Shown: positions 12,827-62,526, counted from the stretch's first letter. The stretch is DNA of 64,000 bases from Chloroflexota bacterium (GCA_004297395.1 SCUO01000036.1:1-64000); one strand, 5' to 3'. A program made the numbers and translations. The notes: generated by a model from the sequence alone, not told the origin.

Positions 12827-12839
12827 TTGCCTGGGCATC

Positions 12840-13225: not shown

Positions 13226-13227
13226 GC

Positions 13228-13779
13228 CTAAGCCGGTGAGTTGCCGCGGACACCCCGTCCCCGGCGCATCGCCGCAGCGATCGCGATCGCGACCCCGACG
13301 CCGATGAGCACGTCGCCCACGCTGAAGACGTTGGCCAGCGGGAGCCAGTCGGGGATGGCGTAGATGTCGGTCAGCGGCTCGAAGGCCGGATCATCGAGGA
13401 CGACGCTGTTCGTGTGCTCGCCGGCATCCTCGAAGCCCGCAAGCTCGAGCGCCCCCGCACTGGCCGGCATGTACCCGCCGTTTGCCGCGATCGCGATGAG
13501 GTTGCTGAAGGCCCCGAGCGCCACGATAGCCATGCCCGCCAGCCGGATGTTCCGAAGCACGGCGACCAGGACGGCGAGGGTCGAGGCGATGTAGATCGGC
13601 GGGACCAGCGCACCGCCCGCCAGCGCGCTGCCCACGGGCGTGAACAGCACGACCTGGACGAGCAGTCCGCCGACGGCCAGCCAGGGCCATCGGAAGTGGA
13701 GCTGGAGAAGGCCGTCGAGCCCGCCACGCAGGAGCCACCCGAGCGCGATCCCGATCGGGATCGCCCAGAGCATGAACAC
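13228..13779 (-). CDS. DUF5317-like membrane protein
   Basis: 183 aa, multi-TM, 'IAIAANGGYMPAS' motif. Confidence 0.65.
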   Translation of the reverse strand: MFMLWAIPIGIALGWLLRGGLDGLLQLHFRWPWLAVGGLLVQVVLFTPVGSALAGGALVPPIYIASTLAVLVAVLRNIRLAGMAIVALGAFSNLIAIAANGGYMPASAGALELAGFEDAGEHTNSVVLDDPAFEPLTDIYAIPDWLPLANVFSVGDVLIGVGVAIAIAAAMRRGRGVRGNSPA

Positions 13780-13785
13780 CGGCGC

Positions 13786-14295
13786 TCAGGCCCCGCGCGT
13801 GGCGAGGATGTCCTCGAGCTGCCGGACGTGGTCCTCGAGGTGGCCGACCACGAACCGCTCGAAGAGGGCCTCCACCGTGAATGGGCCGCGGGTCTGGTGG
13901 GTGCCCGCCGCCGTCGCCTCCGCGGGCGAGATCATCCGCAGCCGGGCCGTGACCCGGGCACCCTCCGAGCCCAGCCGCGAGAAGAGCTCGCGGAGCGGCA
14001 TCTCGCGGTCGCGCCCGATGACCCCGATCCGAATCGGATCCTCGGCAGTTCGCCCGAAGGCGACGTCCGTTCCGGCACGCGCCCCATCGATGACCCGCTC
14101 GGCGTGCCCGAGCCAGTAGGGCAGCATCTCGTCGACATGCGCGAGCAGCTCCGGGGGTCCCCAGCTCGCCTCCGCCTCGGTCCCGTAGAGCTCCGCGAGG
14201 GGCCACGGTCCGGCGTCATCGACCCGTCCCTGCATCGCCAGCATCGCCGCCGTCGCCGCGTCCAGTCGCCTCGCCAGATCGTCAAGTGCCGCCAT
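13786..14295 (-). CDS. DinB-superfamily protein (maleylpyruvate isomerase/damage-inducible fold)
   Basis: WGPPELLAHVDEMLPYWLGHAE and GHLEDHVRQLEDIL helices with metal-ligand-like His. Confidence 0.65.
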   Translation of the reverse strand: MAALDDLARRLDAATAAMLAMQGRVDDAGPWPLAELYGTEAEASWGPPELLAHVDEMLPYWLGHAERVIDGARAGTDVAFGRTAEDPIRIGVIGRDREMPLRELFSRLGSEGARVTARLRMISPAEATAAGTHQTRGPFTVEALFERFVVGHLEDHVRQLEDILATRGA

Positions 14296-14412
14296 GGCCG
14301 CAGTCTGGCACAGCCGCGTGGTTCTCGGCCCGCGGAGATTGAACCGCCGCCGACGATGCCGCGCCGTAGGGTGTAGGCGGCCAGATCGGTCGCCTCTGGA
14401 GAGGAGCGGGGC

Positions 14413-14970
14413 GTGCAGACGAAGCTCGTCGACGATGCGCGACACGGAGACCGCGAGGCCTTCGGCGTGCTCGCCGGCGCGTCCGTCGATCGGTTGTACG
14501 CGATCGCCCGGCTCATCCTCCGCGACACCGAACTCGCGGAGGATGCGACCCAGGATGCCCTGATTCGCGCCTGGCGCGACCTGCCCACGTTGCGCGACGT
14601 CGAGCGCTTCGACGCCTGGCTCTACCGGCTGCTCGTCCGCAGCTGCACCGACATCGCCCGGCGCCGCCGGAGGTGGCGGGCCGAGCTCACGATCGTGAGC
14701 CGCGAGCCGGCCGAGCCCGATCGCGCATCGGAGCTCGCCGATCGCGACGAGCTCGAACGCGGCCTCCGCCGCCTCAACGACGCCCAGCGATCGATCCTCG
14801 TCCTGAACTTCTACGTTGGCCTGCCTCCCAGCGAGGTGGCCGATGCCCTGGACATCCCTGTCGGGACCGCAAAGTCCCGGCTCCACTACGCCATCGAGGC
14901 GTTGCGGGCCGCCCTTGCGGCGGACGCGCGCTCGGTGGGCAACGCCGACCGAGAGGGGCGGACCGCATGA
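14413..14970 (+). CDS. RNA polymerase ECF sigma factor (module A)
   Basis: LAEDATQDALIRAWRDLPTLRD region 2; LPPSEVADALDIPVGTAKSRLHYA region 4. Confidence 0.92.
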   Translation: MQTKLVDDARHGDREAFGVLAGASVDRLYAIARLILRDTELAEDATQDALIRAWRDLPTLRDVERFDAWLYRLLVRSCTDIARRRRRWRAELTIVSREPAEPDRASELADRDELERGLRRLNDAQRSILVLNFYVGLPPSEVADALDIPVGTAKSRLHYAIEALRAALAADARSVGNADREGRTA

Positions 14971-15764
14971 GCGACAACCGAGACCTCACGCGTCGGCTGG
15001 CCGACTTCTACGCCGGCGAGGCCCCCTCCCGAGCACCCGATTGGCTGCTTCGCGAGAGCCTCGCCGCCATCGAGACCACCAAGCAGCCGCGTCTCCTCAT
15101 CGGCGCGCGGCGGAGGATCTACCTGATGAGCACGAACCTGAAAGTGGCGGCCGCCGTGGTTGCGGTCGTCGCCCTCGGGGTGGTCGGGTGGCAGCTGCTT
15201 CCCGGCCCGGACGGAACGGGTGGCGAGCCGACCCCGACGCCGACGATCGCTCCGAGCCCGACGCCGACGCCGACCATCGCCCCGACTCCGACGCCGGCTC
15301 CCACGGCGCCGCCGCTGACCGGATTGCACACTTCCGAGTTGTTCGGCCTGACCGTGTCGTATCCGGCCGGGTGGACAGTCGTGGAGGCCACGGAACCCTG
15401 GACGACGCGGTCGGTGCCCAGCTTCATCGAGCCGTCCGCGGACACCATCCACGACCCGATCCTGCGGGACCACCTCTTCATGATCGTGGCATCCGAACCC
15501 CTGAACGGTGAATCGGGTCAGGCCTGGGCGGATGCGATCGCGGCCGAGCCCGATCCGGAGCCCTGCCCGACCTTCGACGCCGTCGTCGTCGGCGGCCTGG
15601 AGGGGCGGCTCCATAGCTGCAACCTTCCGGTGCGGGCGTTCTTCTGGAGCGAAGACCGTGGCTACCTCGTCGCGATGTATCGATCCGGTGACGAGGTCTG
15701 GCTCGAGGACGTCTATGACCTCGACTGGTTCAACGACGTTCTGGGAACTGTCCAGGTCCAATAG
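14967..15764 (+). CDS. Putative membrane anti-sigma factor with P/T-rich linker and extracytoplasmic domain (module A)
   Basis: ATGA overlap with the sigma gene; cytosolic N-terminus, single TM, PTPTPTIAPSPTPTP linker, C-terminal domain. Confidence 0.7.
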   Translation: MSDNRDLTRRLADFYAGEAPSRAPDWLLRESLAAIETTKQPRLLIGARRRIYLMSTNLKVAAAVVAVVALGVVGWQLLPGPDGTGGEPTPTPTIAPSPTPTPTIAPTPTPAPTAPPLTGLHTSELFGLTVSYPAGWTVVEATEPWTTRSVPSFIEPSADTIHDPILRDHLFMIVASEPLNGESGQAWADAIAAEPDPEPCPTFDAVVVGGLEGRLHSCNLPVRAFFWSEDRGYLVAMYRSGDEVWLEDVYDLDWFNDVLGTVQVQ

Positions 15765-15890
15765 CCGCGCGAAGCCGGTGCTTGTCGGTCCGAGCGCCGG
15801 GCGCATCTGGACTGGGGCGTTGCTGGGGGAGCGGGACTACCATGGGTGGTCACTGCTCCTCCAGCCACGCACACGGAGGAATCGCGTCCT

Positions 15891-17060
15891 ATGACCGAGA
15901 CGCTGTCACGTGGGGCGGCCAACCAGGCCGGCGCCCACCTCAACAAGGACGCCTACGCCCAGGCGCAGGACTTCCTGCCCCTCAAGGGCCTCGACCATGT
16001 CGAGTTCTGGGTCGGCAATGCCCGCCAGGCCGCCCACTACTTCCGGGCCCTGTGGGGTTTCACGCCCATCGCCTATGCCGGCCTGGAGACGGGCATCCGC
16101 GATCGGACGAGCTACGTGATGCGCCAGAACGACATCACGATCGTCCTCACGGGAGCCCTCTCGCCCGAGGGCGAGATCGCCGAGCACGTCCATCGCCACG
16201 GTGACGGCGTCCACGACATCGCCTTCGCCGTCGACGACGTCCGGAGCGCCTGGGTGGAGACGACGAAGCGCGGCGCGCGCTCCTATCTCGAGTTTGCCGA
16301 GGCCGGCAGCGACGAGGACGGCACGCTGCGGCGGAGCGCGATCCACACCTACGGCGAGGTCATCCACTCGTTCATCGATCGGAGTGATTTCCACGGAGCC
16401 TTCGCGCCGGGGTTCCGGAAGGTCAAGAAGCCGGCCCGGGCAGCCGGCGGCCTGTCGCTCCTCGAGATCGACCACTGCGTCGGCAACGTCGCCCTCGGCG
16501 ACATGGACAAGTACGTTGACTACTACCGGGACGTCCTGGGCTTCGCCCAGCTCATCCATTACGACGACAAGGTCATCCACACCGAGTACTCGGCCCTCAT
16601 GTCGAAGGTCATGACCAACGGCAACGGGCGGGTCAAGTTCCCGATCAACGAGCCGGCACCGGCCAAGAAGAAGAGTCAGATCCAGGAGTTCCTCGACTAC
16701 TACCTCGACGCCGGGACGCAGCACATCGCCCTCCGGACCGAGGACATCGTCGGGACGGTCCGCGCGCTTCGCGAGAACGGGGTCGAGTTCCTGGGCATGC
16801 CCCACGCCTACTACGAGACGCTGGCCGACCGGGTCGGCGACGTCGGCGTGCCGATCGAGACGCTCGAGGAGCTGGGCATCGAGGCCGACCGCGACGAGGA
16901 GGGCTACCTCCTCCAGATCTTCACCCGGCCGATCCAGGACCGCCCGACCTTCTTCTTCGAGATCATCGAGCGGCACGGATCGCGCGGCTTCGGGGTCGGC
17001 AACTTCAAGGCCCTCTTCGAGGCCATCGAGATCGAACAGGCCCGGCGCGGGAACCTCTAG
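15891..17060 (+). CDS. hppD: 4-hydroxyphenylpyruvate dioxygenase
   Basis: Two VOC domains; LDHVEFWVGNA, EIDHCVGNVALGDM, GTQHIALRTEDI, FFFEIIERHGSRGFGVGNFKALFEAIE. Confidence 0.95.
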   Translation: MTETLSRGAANQAGAHLNKDAYAQAQDFLPLKGLDHVEFWVGNARQAAHYFRALWGFTPIAYAGLETGIRDRTSYVMRQNDITIVLTGALSPEGEIAEHVHRHGDGVHDIAFAVDDVRSAWVETTKRGARSYLEFAEAGSDEDGTLRRSAIHTYGEVIHSFIDRSDFHGAFAPGFRKVKKPARAAGGLSLLEIDHCVGNVALGDMDKYVDYYRDVLGFAQLIHYDDKVIHTEYSALMSKVMTNGNGRVKFPINEPAPAKKKSQIQEFLDYYLDAGTQHIALRTEDIVGTVRALRENGVEFLGMPHAYYETLADRVGDVGVPIETLEELGIEADRDEEGYLLQIFTRPIQDRPTFFFEIIERHGSRGFGVGNFKALFEAIEIEQARRGNL

Positions 17061-17071
17061 AGATCTGGAGT

Positions 17072-17097
17072 GTGGGAGCCTCCGGAGAGGCTCCCAC
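17072..17097. terminator. Bidirectional hairpin terminator between convergent genes
   Basis: GTGGGAGCCTC-cgga-GAGGCTCCCAC, 11-bp perfect stem, no U-tract. Confidence 0.75.
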
Positions 17098-17109
17098 GAG
17101 CGTTGCCGG

Positions 17110-17613
17110 TCAGCAGGCGGGTGCGGCAACTGGCTCGTCGATGCGCGGCGAGCTGCCCGTCGCGACGTCGAAGTAGGTGGCGTAGAGGACGAGGTTCTCG
17201 GTGCCACCGTTGAACGCGGTGTGGACGTGGCCCTGGCCGGGATCGACAAAGGCGGTTCCCGTCGGGTAGACCGTCTCGAAGCAGCCGCCGTGGTCCTCGC
17301 GAACGTACGTGAGGGCGCCGGCTTTCACGACCACGACGACGGGTCCCGGATGGCTGTGCCAGCCGGTGGTGCCACCCGGGGCGATCGTGATCTCCTGGAC
17401 GATCACCTCGCCCGCATCGGGCGCGTTCGAGACGACCGTGCCGTATGCGGTGTCGAACTTGATCTTGACGTCGACGTGGTCGCTGAAGTCGCCGCGCGCG
17501 AGGATCGGGGCCGAGATGACGCCGCTGGCCGGCGTGCCCAACGTCGCGGTGACGACGGTCAGGAGGAGCAGGAGCGCCGCGGCTGCGGCAAGCGTAATGC
17601 GGGAAGGACGCAT
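17110..17613 (-). CDS. Secreted cupin-domain protein
   Basis: Signal peptide; ITIAPGGTTGWHSHPGPVVVVVKAG cupin motif 1; VDPGQGHVHTAFNGG. Confidence 0.82.
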   Translation of the reverse strand: MRPSRITLAAAAALLLLLTVVTATLGTPASGVISAPILARGDFSDHVDVKIKFDTAYGTVVSNAPDAGEVIVQEITIAPGGTTGWHSHPGPVVVVVKAGALTYVREDHGGCFETVYPTGTAFVDPGQGHVHTAFNGGTENLVLYATYFDVATGSSPRIDEPVAAPAC

Positions 17614-48867: not shown

Positions 48868-49036
48868 TGGCTCCTGGGTTGGTGTCGGGGCGCGGACGAA
48901 GGCACGCGCGTGGTCTGCGGGGGAGGGCGCCCCACGGGACGCGCCCCGAATGGTGCCTCGTCGGCAGCCGCCCGAGCGTGGAATCCGTGCGCTCGTGCAC
49001 ACGATCGGCGCTCAGTGCGGTACGCTGCCGCGCGTC

Positions 49037-49621
49037 ATGGCCCTGCCCGCCCAGCCTCGTCCGCGCCGGCCCCGGGCCGCCACCGTCCGGGCCATCGCCC
49101 GGCGCTTCGAATCCGACCTCTCGGCATCGGTCATGGCGGCCGGCCCGCGGGTTCCCAACGTCCGCCAGATCTCGGAGCGGGTGGCGATGGGCCGGGCGCT
49201 CTGGCGCGAGCTCGTCATCGGGTTCGCCTCGCAGCTGGCCGATCTCCGGCTCGGGTTCACCCAGCTCGCGGCCCTCTACGTCCTGGCCGACGGCAGCACC
49301 ACGACGATCGGCGAGCTGGCCGAGTCGCTGGGCCGTTCGCCGTCGGCCACGAGCCGGCTGGTCGACGGGCTCGTCCGGCGCAGGCTCGTGGAGCGCCACG
49401 AGGAGCCGGAGGATCGACGCCAGCGCTCGGTGGCGCTGACGCAGCGCGGCCAGGCAATCCTCCGGGGGGTCGATCGGGCCCGGGCCGACCAGTTCCTGAC
49501 CGCGGTCCGGCCGCTGCCCACGCCCGAGCGAGCCCTCGTGGCCATGGGCGTCGCGGCTCTCGCGACCCGGGCGTTCTCGCGCAAGGGCCGGGTCGTTCGC
49601 GGGGACCCCGAGCGCCACTGA
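49037..49621 (+). CDS. MarR-family transcriptional regulator, divergent from fabD
   Basis: TTIGELAESLGRSPSATSRLVDGLVRRRLVERHEEPEDRRQRSVALTQRG. Confidence 0.88.
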   Translation: MALPAQPRPRRPRAATVRAIARRFESDLSASVMAAGPRVPNVRQISERVAMGRALWRELVIGFASQLADLRLGFTQLAALYVLADGSTTTIGELAESLGRSPSATSRLVDGLVRRRLVERHEEPEDRRQRSVALTQRGQAILRGVDRARADQFLTAVRPLPTPERALVAMGVAALATRAFSRKGRVVRGDPERH

Positions 49622-49671: not shown

Positions 49672-50478
49672 TCAGCCTCCCGCGCCGCGGCGGCGCCGGG
49701 CGAGGACCATGCCACCGACGAGCCCGAGCGCGAGGAGTCCGGCGATGACGACCGCGAGGCCGCCTGGTCCGCCGCCCGACGCTCCCGACTCGTCGCCGGC
49801 GGGTCGTGCAGTGGCGTCGGCCGACGGCGACGACGACGGTGAAGACGAGGGCGAGTTGCCCGGCTCGTCCGAGGCCGTCCCCGAGGGCTGGGTCGTCGCG
49901 GGCGACGCGTCCGGCGACCGCGTCGTGGCCTCGGTCGGGCCGGCCGTGGCGACGACCGCCGGCGTGGGTGCCGGTGTTGGACGGGGCGTGGGACGGGGCG
50001 TCGGGGCGGGGGTCGGCGTCTTGGTGGGGGCGGGAGTCGGAGCCGGGGTCGCGGCGGAGAGGACGGTGACCGAGCCGCTCATCTGCTCCGGATGGATCTC
50101 GCAGAAGTATGGGAACGTCCCGATCGATGGGAACGTCGTCGTGAACGAATCGCCATCGAGCAGCAGGCCCCCCGAGGCCGGGCTGTCCGCGAACCGGTCG
50201 TCGATCGCCCCGGGCGCCCCGCTGGTGACGCTGTGGGGCTCGCCCGATGCATGCCATGTGACCTGGTCGCCGACGGTGACCGTCAGGCTCGACCCCCCGC
50301 CGGCTGCCACGTAGCGGTAGTTGATCGCCTGAACGATGTGCCCGGCGGCCAGTCCCGGGTCCGCCTCGATGAGCAGCCCCAGCGCTACGGCAAGCGCAAT
50401 CGCGAGGGTTGCAGTCCGAGATGCCGCGTGGCGAATCGCCCGCGCCCGGCTATGCCGCGGCGGGCTCCATGCGTCCAT
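49672..50478 (-). CDS. Membrane-anchored cupredoxin with P/T/S-rich stalk
   Basis: VTVGDQVTWHASGEPHSVTSG...GTFPYFCEIHPEQMSGSVTVL type 1 copper motif; P/T stalk; C-terminal TM and RRRR. Confidence 0.85.
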   Translation of the reverse strand: MDAWSPPRHSRARAIRHAASRTATLAIALAVALGLLIEADPGLAAGHIVQAINYRYVAAGGGSSLTVTVGDQVTWHASGEPHSVTSGAPGAIDDRFADSPASGGLLLDGDSFTTTFPSIGTFPYFCEIHPEQMSGSVTVLSAATPAPTPAPTKTPTPAPTPRPTPRPTPAPTPAVVATAGPTEATTRSPDASPATTQPSGTASDEPGNSPSSSPSSSPSADATARPAGDESGASGGGPGGLAVVIAGLLALGLVGGMVLARRRRGAGG

Positions 50479-50485
50479 GGCCCGT

Positions 50486-50542
50486 ATACGAGTGCCGCGG
50501 CCGGGCGGATCTCGGAGATCCGATCCGGGACGCCGCTCGTAT
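50486..50542. promoter_or_regulatory. 57-bp extended dyad in the cupredoxin/CHRD divergent region
   Basis: Core GGATCTC-g-GAGATCC (50507-50521); outer ATACGAG (50486-50492) / CTCGTAT (50536-50542), same centre 50514. Confidence 0.65.
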
Positions 50543-50606
50543 GCCCTCCCATCGGACCGGCGGCGCGCCCAGACGCGCCGGCCCGCCGGCGATAGTGGAG
50601 GAAGGC

Positions 50607-51644
50607 ATGCGCCCGCGAATCCTGACCCTGCTCGTGATCGGGCTGCTCGCGATCACGGCACCCACGGCCTACGCCGTGGACCCACCGACGGCTGCATTCG
50701 GGGGGCCGCTCACCGGCGCCCAGGAGGTCCCGCCCGTCGCAACCGCCGCGACCGGTGAGGCGACCGTGGTGCTCTCGCCGGACGATTCGACGATCTGGTA
50801 CATCGTCGACTACAGCGGCCTGTCGGGCGCCCTGGTCGCGGCCCACATCCACACCGGAGCCGCCGGCGTGAACGGTGGCGTCATCCTGCCGCTGACCGCC
50901 TCCGCGAGCCCGATGGTCGGGACGCTCACCTCGGCCAACTTCACGGCCAGCGGGGCGATCACGACCTTCGCCCAGGCCGTCGCCGCGATCAAGGCCGGCG
51001 CCACCTACATCAACCTCCATACGGCCGCCAATCCCGGTGGCGAGATCCGCGGCCAGGTCGTCGCCAAGGGCAATGCCCACTTCGTGGCCCTCTCCGGTGC
51101 CCAGGAGGTGCCGGCCGTCACGACTGCCGCAACCGGCAGCGGCTGGGTCGTGATCAGCACCGACGGCTCGACGATCACCTACTACGTCGCGTACAGCGGC
51201 CTCTCGGGCGCGGCGGCTGCGGCCCACATCCACCTCGGTGCCGCCGGTGCCAACGGCGGGGTCCTGCTGCCGTTGACCGCGACCGCGAGCCCGATGCTCG
51301 GCACGCTGACGTCGGCCAACCTCACGCCGACCGGCTCGGTCACCGACTTCGCCGGCGCGGTCGCGGCGATCGCGGCCGGCAACACGTACGTCAACATTCA
51401 CACGGCCGCCAACCCGGGCGGCGAGATCCGCGGCCAGATCGGCGGGCTGCCCGCCCCCGCGCCAACCGCGAACCCGACCACGCCGCCGACCTCGACGGCA
51501 ATGCCGCCCACTCAGGCGTCCGGGAGCGATGCCTGGCTGGTCCTCCTCGCGCTTGGCGCTGCGATCGGCGCGCTCTACCTGCCCCTCCGCCGGCGCGAGG
51601 TCCGAGAACGAGCCACTGGGGGTGTTCGACCGGACCGCCGCTGA
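50607..51644 (+). CDS. Secreted protein with two CHRD domains and C-terminal TM
   Basis: Duplicated LTGAQEVPPV...AAHIHTGAAGVNGGV...YINLHTAANPGGEIRGQ units. Confidence 0.88.
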   Translation: MRPRILTLLVIGLLAITAPTAYAVDPPTAAFGGPLTGAQEVPPVATAATGEATVVLSPDDSTIWYIVDYSGLSGALVAAHIHTGAAGVNGGVILPLTASASPMVGTLTSANFTASGAITTFAQAVAAIKAGATYINLHTAANPGGEIRGQVVAKGNAHFVALSGAQEVPAVTTAATGSGWVVISTDGSTITYYVAYSGLSGAAAAAHIHLGAAGANGGVLLPLTATASPMLGTLTSANLTPTGSVTDFAGAVAAIAAGNTYVNIHTAANPGGEIRGQIGGLPAPAPTANPTTPPTSTAMPPTQASGSDAWLVLLALGAAIGALYLPLRRREVRERATGGVRPDRR

Positions 51645-51760
51645 TCGGCGACGGGCCTGGGGCCGGGGTCGGTTGCCGCGGGAGACCGCGACACCGGCCC
51701 CGCGCCGATTGCAGGACCGGGTCGTCCGGGGCGAGCCCGACCGAGCCTGAGGGGTGCGGA

Positions 51761-51794
51761 ACCGGTCCTCGGCAGGGGGAAGCCGAGGACCGGT
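51761..51794. terminator. Bidirectional hairpin between CHRD gene and MCO1
   Basis: ACCGGTCCTCGGC-agggggaa-GCCGAGGACCGGT, 13-bp perfect stem. Confidence 0.8.
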
Positions 51795-51845
51795 CGCGAA
51801 GGGACTGCGGGTTCGTGACGCGCGAGCGAACCGACGCGCCGAGGG

Positions 51846-53450
51846 CTACATCTCGCCCATGCCGCCATCGCCCATGATGTGCCAGACGCCCATCATCCCG
51901 ATGTCCTCGTGCTCGATGATGTGGCAATGGATCATTGCCATCCCGGCGTAGTCCATGACCGGCATGAGGAGCTCGATCTTGCCCATACGGGGCACGATCG
52001 TGACGTCCTTCCAGGCCGGGATCGTGGTGTAGAGGCTCGCGTAGCCGGCGTCTCCACCCGTGATCGAGAGGACCTGGGCCGAGTTCGTGTGGTGGTGGAA
52101 GGGGTGATCCATCCCACTCGAGTTGACGATCTCCCAGATCTCCCAGGTGCCCACGTCGGACATCGTCATGTAGCAGTCTTCGTGGCTGAGGTACGTGCGG
52201 CCGTCGATGCCGACCGCGCCCATGCCCATCGTGAGGGTCATCCGTTTTCGCTGGGCCACCATCGAGAGATCCGTCACCCGCACGGCCGACGGGTCGACGG
52301 CCGACGGGATCGCCTGGTTCTGCTTCGCTCCTCCGTACGTGAGCGTCATCAGCGTGATCTGCTGCTGCGCGCTCATGCCGCCGCGGCCGTAGGGCAGTGA
52401 CAGCCACTTGTAGGAGCCCGACTTCAGGGTGGCCCTGACCAGGACGTCGATTCGCTCGCCCGGGGACAGAAGGATCTCGCCGATGGGGTACGGCTTGTCG
52501 AGGAGGCCGCCGTCCGTCCCGACGAGGTACATCGTGTGGTTCTGCAGGCTTAGCCGGAAGAATCGGGCGGTGCAGGCATTGACGACACGCCAGCGCTGCA
52601 CCTGGCCCGGGGCGATCGCCAGGCGCGGATTCACCTGGCCGTTGACCATCACGGTGTTGCCCTCGACACCGTGCATGTAGTCCATCTGCGAGTCGTGCGG
52701 CGCCGGCACGGATCCGGCCAGGGTGATGTCCTTGAGGACGAGCACCTTCTCGGCGAACGGCTTCAGCGCATCGACCCCGTCCTCGACGACGAGCGGTGCC
52801 GACATGCCGCCCCACATCTGGTCGGTGACGCTGCCGTGGATGTGGGGGTGGTAGAAGTTCAGGTTGCCGGCCGGATGGTTCGAGAGGTCGTACTCGTACT
52901 CGAGGCTGTCGCCCGGGTCGGCCATCGCCAGCATGCAGTCGCCGAAGGTGCCGTTGGCGTTGGCGTCGGGCGTGACGTGCAGACCGTGGGTGTGGATATT
53001 CGTCATTCGCGTCGAGTGGCCGAGGAAGTTGGTCTGGCCGTCATTCGGCAGCGCGTTCCGAAAATGGAGCTTCAGGAGCTGGTCTCGACGGACGCGGATC
53101 ATCGGCCCCGGAAACTGGCCGTTGTACGTGACCAGGTTGGCGACCGTGCCGTTGACATCGACCAGTGCTTGCCGCGCCTCGATCTCGACCTCGACAACCG
53201 CCGGATCGATCGACATGTTCGTAGCGAGCGTCGGCAGCCGGAGCGCCGCTCCGACGGGCGGATCGATGACGGCAACGCCACCGCCCCCCATTCCGCCTCC
53301 GCCGCCGCCGCCGCCCCCTGGGCCCATGCCACCCCCGCCCATGCCGTTGCCCGGTCCCGCGCGGACGACGGATACGAGCGGCGACACGTACAGCGCGGTA
53401 CCCGCGAGTGCAGCGCCTTGAATGAACTGGCGCCTCGTGATGCGCTTCAT
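51846..53450 (-). CDS. Multicopper oxidase 1 (Tat-like signal, Gly/Met-rich N-terminus)
   Basis: NIHTHGLH, FYHPHIHG, DHPFHHHTNSAQVL, IHCHIIEHEDIGMMGVW copper motifs; RRQFIQGAAL. Confidence 0.92.
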   Translation of the reverse strand: MKRITRRQFIQGAALAGTALYVSPLVSVVRAGPGNGMGGGGMGPGGGGGGGGGMGGGGVAVIDPPVGAALRLPTLATNMSIDPAVVEVEIEARQALVDVNGTVANLVTYNGQFPGPMIRVRRDQLLKLHFRNALPNDGQTNFLGHSTRMTNIHTHGLHVTPDANANGTFGDCMLAMADPGDSLEYEYDLSNHPAGNLNFYHPHIHGSVTDQMWGGMSAPLVVEDGVDALKPFAEKVLVLKDITLAGSVPAPHDSQMDYMHGVEGNTVMVNGQVNPRLAIAPGQVQRWRVVNACTARFFRLSLQNHTMYLVGTDGGLLDKPYPIGEILLSPGERIDVLVRATLKSGSYKWLSLPYGRGGMSAQQQITLMTLTYGGAKQNQAIPSAVDPSAVRVTDLSMVAQRKRMTLTMGMGAVGIDGRTYLSHEDCYMTMSDVGTWEIWEIVNSSGMDHPFHHHTNSAQVLSITGGDAGYASLYTTIPAWKDVTIVPRMGKIELLMPVMDYAGMAMIHCHIIEHEDIGMMGVWHIMGDGGMGEM

Positions 53451-53544
53451 TGTCGATACCCCTTTGGAGCCGGCAGTGGATCCCAGTCCTCAGGTCCTGT
53501 CCGCCTTCTGCGCTCGTCGGGGACGCTCGACGGGATGTCCGCGA

Positions 53545-55629
53545 TTAGGCCCCCGGCTCGCCGGACTGGACCGGGCCGATGCGGTAGGGCCGCATCATCT
53601 CGTTGTCTTCATGCTCGACGATGTGGCAGTGCCAGACGAACTGGCCTGGCTTGTCGAACTTGACTCTCAGGCGCGTGACTTCACCCGGATACGCGATGAC
53701 CGTGTCCTTGAAGCCGCTTTCCCAGGCTTCGGGCGCGCGAGGATCACCAACGAGCTCAGCCGGCTGCGTGGCCTCACCGTCCTCGACTGCCAACGCCTGC
53801 CGATTGACAACTTCGAAGGTCACCTCGTGCACGTGCATGGGATGGGCGTCGGCGGTGAAGTTGAAGAACTCCCAGACCTCGGTGTCCCCGACGTTCGGGT
53901 TCTCGGTGACCGGATCGGCCCACATCTTCTCGTGTGCCTTCCCGTCATCATCCACAATGCCCAGCACGGCTTCGGACGGCCCATCGTGGACCTCCGACAT
54001 CATCTCGATGAGAGCCAGGGGCCGCGTGAACGTCTCGGCCGGAAGCGGCGTGATCGCCGGCAGCCGGAGGAACTCGGGGGGCGTCGTCGGGTCGGCCCCA
54101 ACTGCGGGGACGACCCGGAGCTGCAGAACCTGGCCCGTAGTGTCGCCGTCAGCGATCGGGAAGTCATCGCCGGGAACGCCGCCGCCGAACGGTTCGTCAG
54201 GACCCACGTTGCCGAGGACATAGTTGCCGACGGGCACGTTGGTGAAGTCGACGATCATGTCGGCACGTTCGGCGAGACCCATGAGAAGCCGGTTGTCGTG
54301 ATCGGCCGTGATGTTGACCGGCGCGGCGAGGAAGCCGCCCTCATTGCCGATCTGCCAGACCTCGACACCCGGGATGGCGTTGAAGTCGAGGATCAGGAAT
54401 CGCGACTGGCAGCCGTTCAGGAAGCGGAAGCGATATCGCCGCTTCTCGACCTGCTGGAACGGCCACGTGTTGCCGTTGACCATGATCGTGTTGCCGAAGA
54501 ATTCGGGGTTCCAGATCGGCGACACGTTACTGTCGGGGATGTAGGGTCCCGTGAACTCGTCGAAGAACGCCCGGGTGTCGGGGTAGAAGAGCGAGCCGTC
54601 CGCATTGAAGCTGCGGTCCTGGATGGCGATCGGGATCTCGTAGTAGGTCTTGTTGGGCGGGAACATGTCGCCGGCCTGTGGCGCCGGGCCGGGCAGCACG
54701 GCTGGGGTCGCCTTCCGGAAGCGAGTGTCAAGGACGGCCCTGTCGCCGGCCGGGCCGCCGCGGACGATGTAGAAGCCGGCAGGACCGGCGTAGACATTCA
54801 GCCGGGTCATGCCGAGGGCATGGTCGTGGTACCAGAGCGTCGAGGCCCTGTTGTCGTTGGGGTACTGGAAGACGGCGAAGCCCGCCCCCCAGTCGGCGCC
54901 ATATGCGGTCTCGGCCTTGCCCCTGAAGAAGTCGTACCACGTTCCTTCAGTGGCGTATCCGGCCGGGATGGTGTCGGTGTCTGGCAGGTACCAGGCCTCG
55001 GCGTAGCCGTCGCTGTCGTCGGCGACGCCGACCGCGCCGTGAACGTGGGTGACCAACGGGACCGGGCCTGTGTACGAATCCGGAGTCGATTCGAACACCG
55101 GTCGGGAGTCGCGTGGACCGTACCCGTAGGCGTCGTCGTTGCCCTGTGGCGGATTCGCCCAGTGGAGCGTCGGGTCGACTGGCAGCAGGTGCGGTAGGAA
55201 GGTGCCGTTCTCGTCGACGAGGTCGTTGATCCACTTGACCTGGACCGGGCGCTTCCATTGCGCCTCGATCGTCAGCGACGGCGCGTTGTGGATCAGGAGC
55301 GGGTTCTTGCCCGCCCCGGTCACGGCGCCGTAGCCCCAGACGGTCGTCTCTGGCATGCCGACTGGCAGGATCTGCTCAGGGAACTGCCGGACCGAGATCT
55401 CGTAGAGATCGCCCGGCTTGCCGCCCATCATCGGCTTCGTCCCGGCCCGGGGCATGACCGGCGGGATGAGGAGGGGCGTCTGGTACTTGGGAATGCCGAG
55501 CGGGTCGAGCGTGCCGCCCGGGATCGACACTGCCACGACAACACGCCGTCCGTCGATGAAGGTCGACAGGAAGAGCGCGGTCCCGGCGCAGGCCGAGCCG
55601 TACAGGAACTGACGTCTCGAGAGTGTCAT
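53545..55629 (-). CDS. Multicopper oxidase 2 (bilirubin oxidase/CotA-like)
   Basis: VTHVHGA, WYHDHALGMTRLNVYAG, HPMHVHEVTFEVV, VWHCHIVEHEDNEMMRPY; start refined to MTLSRRQFLYG at 55629. Confidence 0.92.
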   Translation of the reverse strand: MTLSRRQFLYGSACAGTALFLSTFIDGRRVVVAVSIPGGTLDPLGIPKYQTPLLIPPVMPRAGTKPMMGGKPGDLYEISVRQFPEQILPVGMPETTVWGYGAVTGAGKNPLLIHNAPSLTIEAQWKRPVQVKWINDLVDENGTFLPHLLPVDPTLHWANPPQGNDDAYGYGPRDSRPVFESTPDSYTGPVPLVTHVHGAVGVADDSDGYAEAWYLPDTDTIPAGYATEGTWYDFFRGKAETAYGADWGAGFAVFQYPNDNRASTLWYHDHALGMTRLNVYAGPAGFYIVRGGPAGDRAVLDTRFRKATPAVLPGPAPQAGDMFPPNKTYYEIPIAIQDRSFNADGSLFYPDTRAFFDEFTGPYIPDSNVSPIWNPEFFGNTIMVNGNTWPFQQVEKRRYRFRFLNGCQSRFLILDFNAIPGVEVWQIGNEGGFLAAPVNITADHDNRLLMGLAERADMIVDFTNVPVGNYVLGNVGPDEPFGGGVPGDDFPIADGDTTGQVLQLRVVPAVGADPTTPPEFLRLPAITPLPAETFTRPLALIEMMSEVHDGPSEAVLGIVDDDGKAHEKMWADPVTENPNVGDTEVWEFFNFTADAHPMHVHEVTFEVVNRQALAVEDGEATQPAELVGDPRAPEAWESGFKDTVIAYPGEVTRLRVKFDKPGQFVWHCHIVEHEDNEMMRPYRIGPVQSGEPGA

Positions 55630-55686
55630 CCGAGGTTCTCCCAGTGCGTCGCGAAATTCGGAAGGACGCTCGTGGATCCCAGTGGC

Positions 55687-55721
55687 GACGGGGGCCGCCC
55701 CAAGGTGGGAAAGCCCCCGTC
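55687..55721 (-). repeat. Hairpin in MCO3-MCO2 intergenic region
   Basis: GACGGGGGC-N17-GCCCCCGTC. Confidence 0.55.
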
Positions 55722-55760
55722 TGTCGCTCGTGTTTCGCTTGAAGGATGCCGTCCTCGAGG

Positions 55761-55787
55761 CCGGCGCCGACCGGGGGTCGGCGCCGG
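55761..55787 (-). terminator. Hairpin terminator just after MCO3 stop
   Basis: CCGGCGCCGACC-ggg-GGTCGGCGCCGG, 12-bp perfect stem. Confidence 0.75.
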
Positions 55788-55796
55788 CTCGCGTGA

Positions 55797-58700
55797 CTAG
55801 GGGTTCGTGATGATCGGGAAGGGGGTCGCGTTGACCCATGCGGACGAGCCGACACCGTTGTTGGCCCGGATCCGGAAGTAGTAGGTGGTCGCCTTGCTGA
55901 GGTTGCCGATGGTGGCCGTGACCGCATTGGACGCGACCGAGGTGTTCACGACGCCGGTGGTGAAGGTCGGGTTCGTCGCCCGCTGGATCGTGAAGCCGGT
56001 CTCGTTCGTCGCGTTGTCGGTCCAGGTGAGGGCGACTGCGCGCTTGTTGCCCTGATTCGCGCCGTTGACCGCCGTCAGGTTGGACGGGGCCGCCGGGAGC
56101 GGATCTGAAGCCGCCGTGCTGGCGACCAGCGAGTAGGCGGACAGCGTTGGAACTCCGCCGAACAGGTTGACGGCCGCGACTCGATACTCGTACTGGGTCG
56201 CGGGCTGGATGGTCGTGTCGGTGAACGTGACATTGCCGGTGTTGGTCCGGAGCGGTGCCACCGCAATCCGGGCGAACTCCCCGACGCCGAGGACGCGTCG
56301 TTCGATGACGAAGCCGCCCTCGTCGGTGGCGTTGTCACGCCACGTCAGTCGGGCCTGGGGGCCAGCCTGCAGCGTGGCGGTGAGGAGGCTCGGTGCCAGC
56401 GGCGCCGCCGTCGGCGGCGGCCCGACCGGGGCCGGATCCGAGAAGGACCGGGCTGTGACACTCGGGTACGCGCCACCGTAACCCACGGTGTTCTGCGCCA
56501 CGACGCGGTACAGGTACGCCGTGTTCACGTTCGAGCCACCGTCGCGAAGACTGCGCGGCTCATGGAGATTGGGCGCCGTCAACGGCGACTGGAGCGTCCC
56601 CGCATTCGTCCAGGTAAGGCCGTTCGTGGTCCGCTGCAGGAGGAACGACGTCTCGGTGATCGAGTTGTCGCTCCAGGCAATGACGAACCGTTGGTTGTTG
56701 CCCACTCCGGTGATCGTGGCCGACAGTCCGTCCGCCTCGAGCGGCGGGACCGCGACCAGCACCGGCCGCATCATGTCCATCTCTTCGTGGCTCAGGATGT
56801 GGCAGTGATACACGTACTCCCAACCGAAGTTGACGAGTGCGTTCAGGATCGTGGTCTCGGTCCCGTCAGGAGCCATGATCAGCCCCATCGGATCGAGGTT
56901 CGCGTTGTCGGGCATCATCGGGCTCAGGTTCCGGACACTGTTCGGCACCTCGAACGGCAGGGTCGGGATGATCGGTCGCAGGGCGACGTAGGTGTCCTGC
57001 AGCGGGTTCATCCGGACCGTGTCCTTCCAGCCGAGCTCGTTCGGCTCGGTCGGGCTGATGATGTTGTCCCAGGCCACCCGGTTGAGGACCTGGACGTCGT
57101 ACAGGTGGAAGTGGATCGGGTGGGTATCCACGCCGTTGTGGGTGATCTTCCAGATCTGCGTCCCGTCGCTGCCATCCGAGATGGCGGTGACGTTGAGGTC
57201 GCCCTCCGGCAGGTTCGTGGCGTCGATCACCTCGGTGGGTGGCGCGACGTACGGGTAGAGGTAGATGTTCTGCAGGGCGGGCGTCGCCGGCACGGCCTCG
57301 AGACCGAGGTTGGCCGTCATCCGTCCGAACTCGTCGAAGGCGGACGAGTTCATCTCGTCGTGGATGGCCTTCGGCTGGAGTGGGATCTTCAGCTGCGGGT
57401 TGCTCGCCAGCAGGTTGTCGAACCTGAACAGATCACCGCCCTGCTGGTTGATCCGCGCCATGCCGTCGCACCGGTTGGTGCCGTTCGGATCGGAGCAGTC
57501 ACTGGCTGCGCTGAACGACGTGCCGTAGGCCGAGTTGTAGGCAGCCTGACCGACGATGATCGGGTGCTGCCCTTCCTCGAACACGCCACTGCCGTCCGCG
57601 TGGTGCCTGAACGCCGCATTGAGCGCCGACAGGTTGAATGCGGGAGCGGCCGTCACGTCGGCGACCCTGACCTGCATGATGGTCCGGGTGTTCGGGCCGT
57701 AGCCGGGCAGGGTCAGCCCGTCCGGTCCGCCGGTGTAGTAGTCGTACTGCGGAACCCGGGCGGGGAACGCCGCGGGAGCGTCGTTGTAGAGGATCAGCGT
57801 CTTGCCCGCGAACTTCGAGAAGTCGACGATCACGTCCGCCCGCTCGGCGGGCGCGAGGAGCAGCGAGTGCTTGTCCACGTTGCCGACGTCGAATCGCGTC
57901 GGGTCGGTGATCCAGGTCGTGACCTGCTGGCCGTCGATGACGACCGGGGCGGGTAGGAACCCACCCTCCGTACCGATCTGGACCCAGTCCGGACCGGCCG
58001 GGCTCTGCGTCGTGTCGACCGTCGGGAAGACAACCGGGTCGGTTTGCGCGGCGGCTACTTCGGCCGCATTGAGCGCGACCTCGGTGTCGTCCGTTGGGTC
58101 AGATGGCGTTCCATTGTCGTCGGCGATGTACCACTGGAGATTCCAGAAACGGTCATTCGCGGCGTTGAGGACCCGGAACCGGTACGACTGCGGCTGCAGC
58201 GAGGTGGTCGGGTACGCCGTGCCGTTGACGATCGGCGTGTCGTTGAACTGCTCCATCCCGGCCGAGATGTTCGGCGTGCCCGGGATCTGGGCCGGCTCGC
58301 AGAACGGGTCTTCCTGGTACTGCCACGTCGCGGGGTCGTCCAGGTCACACGCAGGGTCGTAGTACGGGTTGGCGATCGGCGGGAATTGGGGCGTGGCCGG
58401 CGGCCAGAAGAACGGGCCGTACATCCAGCGGCCGTAGGCGCTCATCCCGGACGGGTCGCCCGGGTTCTGCGCCGGCATGTAGACGTGGTGGTACCAGAGG
58501 TTGCCCTCGCCGCCCCAGCGACCGGTATCCCATGTCGGGTCCTGCTCGAGAAGCTGGCCCGTCGACGGGACGAACGTCCGGTCCTGGATGATGAGCGGGA
58601 TCTGGTCGGCCGGGATGGTCCCGTTGGCAACCAGCTTCTGCTCGGTCGGGTCGGTGATCAGGTAGCCGGCAGCCTCGCCGGCGTAGACGTTGAGGCGGGT

Positions 58701-61040
58701 GATCCCCCACGCATGGTCGTGGTAGAACATCAGCCGCGCCGACTGCTGGTTCGTGTAGTAGAAGGTCTGGCACCCGTCACCGGCGGCCGAGCAGTCCGGC
58801 ACGTTCGCCGGCCTGCCCCCGCCGATCATGTCGGGCACGTTCTGGACCGCGACCCCCTGCGGCCACGGCGTGTTCTCGTTGGCGGGCGTGATCCACTGGT
58901 GCGGCGTGCCGTCGCTGATCCACGGCGTCACTCCACCGTGGAGGTGGAGCGTCGCCCGGTTGTCCTTGAAGCACCCGATCGGCTTCGGGTACTCGGTGCA
59001 TTCCGGATTTCGGATCTCGTCGGTGACGGTGCCCTCATCCATCGGCATGTCCATGGCCATGGGGCCCATGCCCGAGCCCATGATGGTCGAGTCGACCGGC
59101 AGGAACAGGTCGCCCGCGGCGCCTGTCGGGAGCAGGTTGTAGAAGACGATCCGGACCGCCTTGTCCTTCGTCGCGACGATCGTCGGGCCGAGGTAGTGCG
59201 GCGCAGTGACGCCCATGGCCTGCGTGCCATCGGGCATCAGCGCCGGGACGGATGTGCCGTCCAGCAGGTCATTGCTGAGGGCCACGCCGCTGCCGTCGGT
59301 GGTCAGCTGCACGTACTCACGGAGCAGCGTACCGGCGGCGGGCAGGCTCGAGCTCATCCGCTCCCGGTGCTGGATCACCGCGATGACGTAGTAGTCGGCG
59401 TTCGCGAAGGTCGTCGTGTCGGGCACGGCGACGGGGATGTACTGGCCGAGGTTGTTCGCGTTGCCCGCGCCGAGACCGGGCAGCGTGTCCTGGAACTTCT
59501 TGATGCCGCCAGGGGTCAGGTAGCCTGAGCCGCCGGTCAGCAGGTTCAGCTGGGTGATCGCGCCGACATCGGTCGTGGCCGTCGCCGTCGCGCCGGTCCC
59601 ACCGCCGCCGAACGTGATATCGGGGGCCGAGGTGTAGCCCGCCCCGAAGGTGTCGAGGATGACCGCCTGGACCTTGAGGGTCGCCGTGCCCTCCGCTGCG
59701 GTGAACGGATCGAGGCCGTGCGCGACCGGGTCGAACTGCGACCCGTCGCGGATGACCACGGCGGGGGCCGTCGCGTACCCGGAGCCCGGGGAGTCAACGA
59801 CGACGCCGGTGACGGTCAGGAAGTCCGTGTCAGCGGTCAGGTTGCAGTCCGGATACGGGGCAGCACAGACAGCGTGGCCCGTCGCCTTGACACCGCTCGG
59901 GTCGTCCGGCAGGTCGAAGTCGACGGTCGGGAACTTGTAGCCGGTCCCTTCGGCCACGATGCTGACCGCGTCCACGCCACCGAGGACGTGCGCGGTCGCG
60001 TCAGTGGTCGCTCCGCCCCCGCTGATCGTGACGGTCGGGGCCGTGTAGCCACCGCCCTCCGCCGTGACGTCGACAGAGGTGACGGCACCGGATGCCTGGA
60101 CGAACGCCTCTGCGGTCGCCCCGTCGGCGGCCGGGTTGGAGCTCGAGATGGTCACCGACGGCTGCGACGTGTAGCCGCTGCCGGGATCGGTGATCGTCAG
60201 GCCGGTCACCGCACCGTTGGCCCCGACCGTGGCCGTAGCGGTGGCCCCGCCGCCCGCTGGCGTGCCGGGGGGGAGGATGGTCGCCGCGAACGAATAGGTT
60301 CGTGGGCCGGCAAGGACGGGGAACTCGGTCCCACCGACGACGAACGTCCCGGTCGTGGGCGGAGCCGCCGGCGACGGGTAGTACACGCCATCCGTCCCGG
60401 CGTTGATGTCGAGCGGGATACCCTGGCCGTAGAAGGCGATGAGATCGCCCGCCAGCACGTCGACGGGTGCCGCCGGAATCCAGACCTCGACCTGGTCGAC
60501 GCCGGCGACGGCCGGCGGCGGGACGGTCAGGAGGCCACTGTCGAAGACGACCTCGTACTCATTCGTGGTCGCGGTCGCCCGCAGGACGTAGGCGTGGAAC
60601 TGGTTGCCCTCCGACACGAGCGCCGGATTGCCGACGGTCTGGTTCCATGTCCGGAAGTCCTGCAGCGTCCCGGCGACCAACGGCGTCGGGAGGACGACGA
60701 GCACCTGGCCCAGGCCCGGATTGCCGGATCCCGTGGTAACGAAGGTGTCGTCGCTCGCATACGTTCTGGCCTGGAGCGGGTTGCCGATCGTGACCGACGC
60801 GATCGGCGCCGGATCGATCGTGACGCTGACGTCGGGGAGCGTCTGCGGGCTGTTCGCCCAGTTCGGGTATGGCCCGAAGTAGTGGGGGACCTTGGTCTCG
60901 TCGGTCGCGCTGATTGGCGCCGACGCGACGATTGGCGCGGCGACCGAGTTGCCAGCGGGCCGGCTCAGTGCGATTGCGGGGGCCGCGGCGGCCTGGCAGA
61001 TGGCCAGGGCCATCAGCAGCGCCCCCAGTCTCCTTGTCAT
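55797..61040 (-). CDS. Giant multicopper oxidase 3 with N-terminal 'GSGYTxxPxV' repeats and C-terminal FN3-like domains
   Basis: About 1747 aa from ATG 61040 (signal ALLMALAICQAAAAPAIA); TLHLHGGVTPW, MFYHDHAWGITRLNVYAG, HPIHFHLYDVQVL, VYHCHILSHEEMDMMRPV copper motifs; three FN3-like blocks at the C-terminus. Confidence 0.9.
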   Translation of the reverse strand: MTRRLGALLMALAICQAAAAPAIALSRPAGNSVAAPIVASAPISATDETKVPHYFGPYPNWANSPQTLPDVSVTIDPAPIASVTIGNPLQARTYASDDTFVTTGSGNPGLGQVLVVLPTPLVAGTLQDFRTWNQTVGNPALVSEGNQFHAYVLRATATTNEYEVVFDSGLLTVPPPAVAGVDQVEVWIPAAPVDVLAGDLIAFYGQGIPLDINAGTDGVYYPSPAAPPTTGTFVVGGTEFPVLAGPRTYSFAATILPPGTPAGGGATATATVGANGAVTGLTITDPGSGYTSQPSVTISSSNPAADGATAEAFVQASGAVTSVDVTAEGGGYTAPTVTISGGGATTDATAHVLGGVDAVSIVAEGTGYKFPTVDFDLPDDPSGVKATGHAVCAAPYPDCNLTADTDFLTVTGVVVDSPGSGYATAPAVVIRDGSQFDPVAHGLDPFTAAEGTATLKVQAVILDTFGAGYTSAPDITFGGGGTGATATATTDVGAITQLNLLTGGSGYLTPGGIKKFQDTLPGLGAGNANNLGQYIPVAVPDTTTFANADYYVIAVIQHRERMSSSLPAAGTLLREYVQLTTDGSGVALSNDLLDGTSVPALMPDGTQAMGVTAPHYLGPTIVATKDKAVRIVFYNLLPTGAAGDLFLPVDSTIMGSGMGPMAMDMPMDEGTVTDEIRNPECTEYPKPIGCFKDNRATLHLHGGVTPWISDGTPHQWITPANENTPWPQGVAVQNVPDMIGGGRPANVPDCSAAGDGCQTFYYTNQQSARLMFYHDHAWGITRLNVYAGEAAGYLITDPTEQKLVANGTIPADQIPLIIQDRTFVPSTGQLLEQDPTWDTGRWGGEGNLWYHHVYMPAQNPGDPSGMSAYGRWMYGPFFWPPATPQFPPIANPYYDPACDLDDPATWQYQEDPFCEPAQIPGTPNISAGMEQFNDTPIVNGTAYPTTSLQPQSYRFRVLNAANDRFWNLQWYIADDNGTPSDPTDDTEVALNAAEVAAAQTDPVVFPTVDTTQSPAGPDWVQIGTEGGFLPAPVVIDGQQVTTWITDPTRFDVGNVDKHSLLLAPAERADVIVDFSKFAGKTLILYNDAPAAFPARVPQYDYYTGGPDGLTLPGYGPNTRTIMQVRVADVTAAPAFNLSALNAAFRHHADGSGVFEEGQHPIIVGQAAYNSAYGTSFSAASDCSDPNGTNRCDGMARINQQGGDLFRFDNLLASNPQLKIPLQPKAIHDEMNSSAFDEFGRMTANLGLEAVPATPALQNIYLYPYVAPPTEVIDATNLPEGDLNVTAISDGSDGTQIWKITHNGVDTHPIHFHLYDVQVLNRVAWDNIISPTEPNELGWKDTVRMNPLQDTYVALRPIIPTLPFEVPNSVRNLSPMMPDNANLDPMGLIMAPDGTETTILNALVNFGWEYVYHCHILSHEEMDMMRPVLVAVPPLEADGLSATITGVGNNQRFVIAWSDNSITETSFLLQRTTNGLTWTNAGTLQSPLTAPNLHEPRSLRDGGSNVNTAYLYRVVAQNTVGYGGAYPSVTARSFSDPAPVGPPPTAAPLAPSLLTATLQAGPQARLTWRDNATDEGGFVIERRVLGVGEFARIAVAPLRTNTGNVTFTDTTIQPATQYEYRVAAVNLFGGVPTLSAYSLVASTAASDPLPAAPSNLTAVNGANQGNKRAVALTWTDNATNETGFTIQRATNPTFTTGVVNTSVASNAVTATIGNLSKATTYYFRIRANNGVGSSAWVNATPFPIITNP

Positions 61041-61305
61041 TTCCTCGCTCCCCTTCATGGGTTCGGCTGGGCACCTGCGCGACACCCCCTGGGGCGGCGG
61101 GTCGCAACGACAGGCACACGTGCCCGTTGTCCCGGACCCTAGGGATGCCGGCTTTCGCGGCCATCGGGGGGATGCCCCGACGTCATCACGGAACCCGGTC
61201 CGCGGAGGATCACGGAGGGCGCGGCGAAACGGCACCCTCGAATCCGTACCTCGGTCCGTACCGGGCTCGGTCATCGGACGCGGCACCTGCGCATACCATC
61301 CGTCC

Positions 61306-61821
61306 ATGCACAAGCCGGAACCCCGTACCGGCCGCCAGGTCGCGCGCGTGCCAGGCTCCCTCGACGACCCCGACTCGGATGTCCAGGACGGGTTCGACCG
61401 GCTCGACACCGACGAGGCTGCCGCAGCCGACGTCCGCGTGCGGTATCGCGAGCACGGCCTCGAGCCGATCGCGCCAGGCGATTGCATCGCCGCACGGCTG
61501 GACGAGGATGAGCACCTCCTGGCCGTCGTGCCCGCGGTGGTGATGGTTCGGCGGCTGGCCAGGCCCGGCGAGGACGAGCAGCTTCGCGGCGATCTCTACG
61601 TCACGTCGAGGCGCCTGCTGCACGTGAGCCTGTTCAACCGGACGATCGAGCTCGACGAGATCGAGGACGCGGCCCTCTCGGGCACGAACGTCCTGCTGTT
61701 GCTTCGAGGCGGGCTCGGGGTGGTCCTCCGCACGTCGAGCCCGAGGCTGGTCCGGGCGAGGATCGCCGTCGCCAGGGCAGCCCGCGGTGCGCCGGCCGGC
61801 GAGGACGTGAGGGCGCCCTGA
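61306..61821 (+). CDS. Hypothetical protein, PH/GRAM-like
   Basis: 171 aa; LYVTSRRLLHVSLFNRTIELDEIEDAAL pattern. Confidence 0.5.
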   Translation: MHKPEPRTGRQVARVPGSLDDPDSDVQDGFDRLDTDEAAAADVRVRYREHGLEPIAPGDCIAARLDEDEHLLAVVPAVVMVRRLARPGEDEQLRGDLYVTSRRLLHVSLFNRTIELDEIEDAALSGTNVLLLLRGGLGVVLRTSSPRLVRARIAVARAARGAPAGEDVRAP

Positions 61822-61848
61822 CGAGCTGGGATTCGGGCCCGCCCCCGA

Positions 61849-62526
61849 TCAGGTGAACGAGCGGTAGAGCCTGCCGGCCTCGCGGCGATTGTCGACGTTC
61901 AGCTTCCGGAGCACGTTGCTGACGTGCGTCTCCACGGTCCGCTGGGACAGGGTCAGTCGCTTCGCGATCTCGCGATCCGTGTAGCCCTCGGCGACGAGCC
62001 GGAGGACCTCGGTCTCACGCGGGCTGATCTCGTTGCCGGCGGCCCCGATCGGGGTCGGAGCCCGCCGCGACCGCTCGGCCAGGTTGCGGACGAGGCGAGC
62101 CGCCATCTGGCGGGGCACGACGAGGTCGCCACGGTGGGCGCCTCGGACGGCTCGCACGAGGGCCTCCGGGGCGACATCCTTCGTCAGGAACCCGGCGGCG
62201 CCATTGCCGACGGCATCGGCGACGTCGGCATCGTCCGTCGAGACCGTGAGCATGACGATGCGGGTCGCCGGGATCCTCGGCGCGAGCTCCCTGACAAGAT
62301 CGACGCCATTCATGCCGGGCAGGCCGATGTCGACGAGCATGACATCCGGACGCAGCTGCGGCGCAAGGCTGAGCGCATCCTCCGCGGTGGCCGCCTCGCC
62401 CACGACCTCGATGCCGGGCTTGCCGAGAGCCTGCCGGATCGCGAGCCGGACGAGCGAATGATCGTCAACGAGCATGACCCGGATCGGGCCCGTGGGCGCC
62501 CCGGCGATCGGCTGACGAGACTGCAT
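61849..62526 (-). CDS. NarL/FixJ-type response regulator with LuxR HTH
   Basis: VMLVDDHSLVRLAIRQAL receiver; SPRETEVLRLVAEGYTDREIAKRLTLSQRTVETHVSNVLRKL HTH. Confidence 0.93.
   Translation of the reverse strand: MQSRQPIAGAPTGPIRVMLVDDHSLVRLAIRQALGKPGIEVVGEAATAEDALSLAPQLRPDVMLVDIGLPGMNGVDLVRELAPRIPATRIVMLTVSTDDADVADAVGNGAAGFLTKDVAPEALVRAVRGAHRGDLVVPRQMAARLVRNLAERSRRAPTPIGAAGNEISPRETEVLRLVAEGYTDREIAKRLTLSQRTVETHVSNVLRKLNVDNRREAGRLYRSFT

Follow-up and report, generated by a model that had tools for sequence, protein, structure and literature searches.

The 64,000-nucleotide stretch analysed here (the window; Chloroflexota bacterium, GCA_004297395.1 SCUO01000036.1:1-64000) carries an island of copper-protein genes at 49,672–61,040, which consists of two units of different history and is not one co-evolved system. 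The first is a resident pair, a membrane-tethered cupredoxin and a protein with two CHRD domains, located between marR–fabD and an M20 peptidase gene. The second is a 12.2-kb block on the minus strand (51,846 to 64,060), in which the genes for a histidine kinase (HK) and a response regulator (RR) are followed, after an 808-bp gap, by three multicopper oxidase (MCO) genes, denoted MCO3, MCO2 and MCO1. We consider it probable that this block is an acquired, self-regulated cassette for O2-dependent oxidation outside the cytoplasm, with metal ions as the favoured substrates. The kinds of enzymes are already known; what is new is the regulated three-MCO cassette inserted beside the resident cupredoxin/CHRD pair. 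No description of this cassette was found in literature searches.

Resident Pair and Probably Acquired Cassette

The two units became apparent by comparison with relatives from the same genus, in which the gene order is fabF–fabF–fabD–marR–cupredoxin–(CHRD)–M20 peptidase–ilvD and no MCO gene is present at this site. Both cupredoxin and CHRD are kept in L154 and L160, where the M20 peptidase gene lies 40–110 bp behind CHRD. The pair is also found in L153, while L155–L158 have the cupredoxin without CHRD and L159 has neither at the threshold used. In the window, HK–RR–MCO3–MCO2–MCO1 occupies the gap that separates CHRD from the M20 peptidase gene. The mean GC content at third codon positions is 0.88 in the cassette vs 0.93 in 21 other genes of the contig (p = 0.0006); one of these 21 is a mis-framed, low-GC3 open reading frame (ORF), which works against the difference. 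MCO3 was found in only one of 61 genomes (60 relatives and the window's own), MCO2 in two and a close MCO1 in one. We infer that the cassette was most likely gained laterally beside the older cupredoxin/CHRD pair.

No transfer vehicle was identified, because all matches outside chromosomes were distant: the plasmid search returned distant MCOs alone, at <60% identity, and the viral contig search two distant relatives, at 41–42%. In L153, the same CHRD–M20 gap holds another stretch of small ORFs of ~2 kb (L153:10784-12204), including an XRE-like regulator and a membrane protein. The site may therefore be an insertion hotspot.

The five genes of the island had been described, in a sequence-only reading of this DNA, as consecutive exported copper or CHRD genes that might belong to one system. 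All five ORFs are intact, and the copper motifs are complete (Table 1), but the opposite orientation of the CHRD gene means that they do not form one operon. In genus relatives with no MCO there, the cupredoxin sits, alone or together with CHRD, at this same place between fabD and M20. The HK/RR pair, which was left out of that reading, lies directly upstream of MCO3 and belongs to the MCO unit. The RR gene starts 1 bp after the HK stop codon, and the MCO genes are separated by 167 bp (MCO3 to MCO2) and 94 bp (MCO2 to MCO1). A scan of 49–64 kb found no sigma-70 promoter or terminator match, a result that is uninformative at 70% GC.

Table 1. Features of the resident pair, its flank and the MCO cassette (positions counted from the first base of the window).
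Feature	Position	Strand	Description
MarR-family regulator	49022..49621	+	Resident flank, start approximate; Pfam MarR_2, 53.3 bits; syntenic with fabD in genus relatives
Cupredoxin, membrane-tethered type-1	49672..50478	-	Pfam PF00127; resident, outside the inserted cassette
Double-CHRD secreted protein	50607..51644	+	Pfam PF07452, two stretches; divergent from cupredoxin; resident
MCO1, 534 aa, Tat leader	51846..53450	-	Thermus laccase/CueO-like, three-domain
MCO2, 694 aa, Tat leader	53545..55629	-	CotA-like MCO
MCO3, 1747 aa, Sec leader	55797..61040	-	Giant MofA/OmpB-like MCO
MCO3 insert region	59502..60866	-	Between NWANSP and KKFQDTLPGL anchors (alignment)
808-bp gap upstream of MCO3	61041..61848	-	Candidate promoter/operator region of the MCO operon, assigned by position only
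NarL/LuxR-type RR	61849..62526	-	Pfam Response_reg and GerE
HisKA_3 HK	62528..64060 (window ends 64000)	-	Pfam HisKA_3/HATPase_c

Proteins of the Two Units

The cupredoxin (Pfam Copper-bind, 26.8 bits vs a cut-off of 21.2) has a signal, a domain with type-1 ligands (H, then CEIHPEQM; CxxHxxxM), a proline/threonine (P/T) stalk and a C-terminal transmembrane (TM) segment, as expected from the tethered protein that had been proposed. The CHRD protein has two CHRD domains (215.6 bits), a P/T linker and a C-terminal TM-like tail.

MCO1, MCO2 and MCO3 each contain the axial Met and the four copper-ligand motifs (HCHIIEHEDIGMM, HCHIVEHEDNEMM and HCHILSHEEMDMM, respectively). The twin-arginine translocation (Tat) leaders of MCO1 and MCO2 scored 20.8 and 18.9 with the TIGR01409 model, both over the cut-off of 16.7, and the leader of MCO3 is Sec-like; two Tat-like signals and one Sec-like signal had been noted earlier. 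The start of MCO2 is most likely at 55,629, which includes the Tat leader, rather than at 55,839, the first ATG of the ORF. MCO1 is closest to Thermus-type laccases (PDB 9cpm, E = 6.5e-77; 2xu9, E = 4e-74). It resembles the Thermus thermophilus laccase and CueO in its full-length match (2xu9) and Tat leader, but scores only 139.2 bits with the NCBIfam CueO equivalog (cut-off 525) and is clustered with two MCOs and a NarL regulator. Its N-terminus is rich in Gly and Met. MCO2 is of the CotA type with complete copper ligands (PDB 8z5b, E = 5e-73; CotA 1gsk, E = 5e-69). The MCO3 core also matches this spore-coat laccase of Bacillus (4e-31), and HCHxxxHxxxxM is present in both; unlike CotA, MCO2 and MCO3 are secreted by Tat or Sec and lack a spore context, and MCO2 has long insertions.

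MCO3 consists of a long insert, a CotA-like core (about aa 513–1430) with the copper motifs HLH, HDH, HPIHFH and HCHILSHEEMDMM, and FN3 modules at the C-terminal end (PF00041, 38.6 bits, cut-off 25), which also align to tandem FN3 chains. EXXE-type matches occur at 680 (ECTE) and 1332 (EPNE), although the motif is so short that chance matches are expected. The insert splits the first domain. The NWANSP–KKFQDTLPGL anchors are 455 residues apart in MCO3 and nine in compact members, corresponding to an insert of ~445 residues; the spacing spans 9 to 1545 across the family. The insert contains a beta-rich domain and GxGYT repeats, the latter matching repeats found in virion and tail proteins of phages (PHROG_701, E = 2.6e-20). 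An AlphaFold2 model of the insert was of moderate quality (pLDDT 76, pTM 0.44), and a PDB structure search with this model yielded no significant match, the best being a phage fibre at E = 0.018. An ORF of ~4057 aa at L041:5356-17529 encodes a giant MCO interrupted by GxGYT repeat arrays of great length, with 35 motif matches.

The Giant MCO Family and Its Neighbours

A search of GTDB genomes with the MCO3 core retrieved at least 557 loci in Actinomycetota, Chloroflexota, Desulfobacterota and other phyla, of which the best 80 were kept. In the tree, MCO3 clusters with proteins from Actinomycetota (it is 79% identical to L045), apart from most Chloroflexota homologs. Relatives with ~70% identity occur in Geobacteraceae, where an FKBP gene adjoins one of two paralogs.

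In genome G557, an MCO3 homolog heads a mof-type operon, followed by genes for an exported protein, an FKBP isomerase, a cytochrome c/periplasmic-binding protein and SCO1. The MCO3 core aligns with this protein (L176) at 40% identity over 667 columns and 43% over 249 (E = 3e-124). The type-1 axial residue is Met in 88 of 89 scorable family proteins, and Phe only in the mof-operon protein. An axial Met gives the type-1 copper of MCOs a lower potential than Phe. The same gene set as in G557 has been described for the Rubrivivax A210 mof operon (PMC8218464), and mofB and mofC also for that of L. discophora (PMC5566968). MofA of Leptothrix discophora, a putative Mn(II) oxidase (PMC5566968, PMC8218464), is likewise a secreted MCO of giant size that contains four copper motifs; the likeness was measured on the G557 protein, Leptothrix MofA itself being compared by description. 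Judged by its sequence, then, MCO3 is MofA-like, though its own neighbours are not mofBC, and it differs in its axial Met, in its long repeat insert and in what lies beside it, two other MCOs and a two-component system of the NarL type. OmpB of Geobacter sulfurreducens (GSU1394) is another giant MCO and MofA homolog, with FN3 and an EXXE motif (PMC5566968). In this comparison, made by description only, OmpB differs in its link to Fe(III) reduction in an anaerobe and in the SCO1/cytochrome neighbours of ompB, which are absent at MCO3.

Regulators recur near giant MCOs. Within 3 kb, a NarL RR was found upstream at 14 of 72 loci and downstream at three of 69 (p = 0.008), and an HK upstream at 12 and downstream at one (p = 0.002); these p-values are indicative only, because the loci come from the most similar homologs and are not independent of one another phylogenetically. 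The loci with both RR and HK are scattered on the MCO3 tree. Mn oxidation in Pseudomonas putida GB-1 is controlled by MnxS1/S2–MnxR (PMC8218464). That system, compared by description, similarly places MCO genes under two-component control; unlike it, the HK/RR pair in the window adjoins the MCOs that it may control.

The neighbourhood is conserved beyond one genome in part. The five-gene set proposed earlier occurs in a single genome, but HK–RR–MCO3–MCO2 is present in at least two. Chloroflexi RBG_16_72_14 (L097, G340) has the same order (HK 47%, RR 60%, MCO3 58% for the main match and MCO2 83% identical) in another genomic context, and its FabF is 77% identical to that in the window, a value shared by a genome that belongs to a different genus of this family. 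More distantly, a Chloroflexota metagenome-assembled genome (L091) shows this order with HK, RR and giant MCO, followed by a gene that distantly resembles MCO2.

Other associations were seen at individual loci. Genes for MauG-type di-haem cytochrome c peroxidases lie directly downstream of giant MCOs in L049, L050, L090, L108 and, as a cut-off copy, in L123, and a MauG-type gene lies beside an MCO1 ortholog (L129:1563-2927). MauG was rejected as a partner here, since it is absent from the window cassette, though present at four or five other giant-MCO loci. A P/T-stalk protein beside MCO2 in G012, considered as a cupredoxin-like partner, had no Pfam match and was likewise rejected. L042 (G328, 6340-17490) has a tandem pair of giant MCOs whose leaders are Tat-like. 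Behind each of the two lies a TatA gene, the copies being nearly identical, which suggests a dedicated Tat component; CopA and HMA genes lie beside them.

Proposed Function and Alternatives

As proposed earlier, these are extracytoplasmic copper proteins, and metal, phenolic or copper oxidation is the right functional class. The MCO genes are packed closely on one strand, together with a regulator of their own. In the mechanism that we propose, the membrane kinase, for which a TM scan found ~8 TM-like segments, would sense a signal and phosphorylate the NarL-type RR, which, to judge from the gene order, would act at the 808-bp gap to drive the MCO operon. According to their leaders, MCO3 would be exported via Sec, and MCO1 and MCO2, already folded, via Tat. 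Each MCO would take single electrons from its substrate at the type-1 copper and reduce O2 at the trinuclear centre, a reaction established for the fold, whose ligands are present here. The FN3 modules and the repeat insert would hold MCO3 on a surface or polymer. As the substrate class we favour metal ions (Mn, Fe, or Cu(I), which MCO1 could oxidize), because MCO3 is homologous to MofA and OmpB; phenolics would come second, a place they keep because of the axial Met and the laccase-like relatives.

Several observations weigh against an acquired metal-oxidizing cassette. None of mofB (FKBP), mofC (cytochrome c) or SCO1 lies beside MCO3, whose neighbours are HK, RR, MCO2 and MCO1. Because the axial residue is Met in MCO3 but Phe in the protein of the mof-type operon, a lower potential is predicted, which makes easy direct Mn(II) oxidation less likely. 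Among the loci compared, the full three-MCO block occurs only in the window. L097 has an extra exported protein without a Pfam match between MCO3 and MCO2, and the G340 ortholog of MCO1 (75%) lies on another contig, at its end, where it adjoins a di-haem protein of the MauG type. The cassette borders showed neither an integrase or transposase gene nor a clear target duplication, and the only direct or inverted repeats there were 9-mers. Loss in all relatives would also account for the empty sites, but is less likely than gain.

The locus might instead serve copper detoxification, in which case MCO1 would oxidize Cu(I) in the manner of CueO and copper would be the signal sensed by the kinase. 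We regard this as unlikely. The CueO match and the Gly/Met-rich N-terminus of MCO1 speak for it, as does the occurrence of CopA/HMA genes beside giant MCOs in L042, but MCO1 falls far short of the CueO cut-off and is nearer to the Thermus laccase, the regulators are of the NarL type and not CueR or CusRS, and Cu(I) oxidation needs no giant FN3 MCO. The copper reading could also draw on a CopA-type copper P-ATPase with an HMA domain and a fused C-terminal cupredoxin, which is encoded beyond the window, ~7 kb from the cassette (L010:11240-13960; contig C66:71240-73960, +).

A laccase role in the oxidation of phenols or humics, with three MCOs differing in substrate range, seems to us unlikely to a similar degree. 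The cassette is without aromatic-catabolism genes, and lineages that cycle metals (Geobacteraceae, Desulfobacterota) often have members of the MCO3 family. MCO1 and MCO2 are nearest to laccases and CotA, and the NCBIfam aminophenol-oxidase PhsA profile matches MCO2 and MCO3, but all profile matches are under the curated cut-offs.

Considerably less probable is the model of the earlier reading, a single system for extracellular oxidation made up of all five genes, whose tethered cupredoxin would relay electrons between the MCOs and the respiratory chain (ctaC/ctaD). Physical adjacency and the tethered type-1 domain make the idea attractive. The relay nevertheless finds no genomic support, because the cupredoxin keeps its site in MCO-less relatives, as does CHRD where present, and no relative of either protein was detectable near any of ~90 giant-MCO loci. 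MCOs reduce O2 unaided and need no oxidase. The ctaC gene (1635-2831, minus strand) is 47 kb from the island and encodes a CtaC (COX2) that already carries a cupredoxin domain of its own, as an addition at the C-terminus (Pfam Cupredoxin_1); the window showed no ctaD signature.

An assembly or binning artefact joining foreign contigs is hardly credible even for a draft genome (3.08 Mb, 143 contigs, 85% complete), since both cassette flanks are syntenic with genus relatives on one 87-kb contig, so that two false joins would be needed.

Implications

The empty sites in the relatives correct a tempting reading of the locus as a single island. The acquired cassette points to a giant-MCO family that is homologous to the putative Mn oxidase MofA, has another type-1 ligand and sometimes lies beside a NarL two-component system. 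More speculatively, the block may be a transferable, self-regulated extracellular oxidation module whose giant MCO represents a large, uncharacterised sister clade of MofA over many phyla; in this clade, the axial Met would tune the potential to a substrate other than that of MofA, and the expandable, phage-fibre-like insert would fix the enzyme to a mineral or polymer. If the substrate of the family were found, many as yet unassigned oxidases of metals or phenols from the environment could be given an annotation, among them those of lineages such as Geomonas, Cellulomonas and Streptomyces, in which tests in culture are possible.

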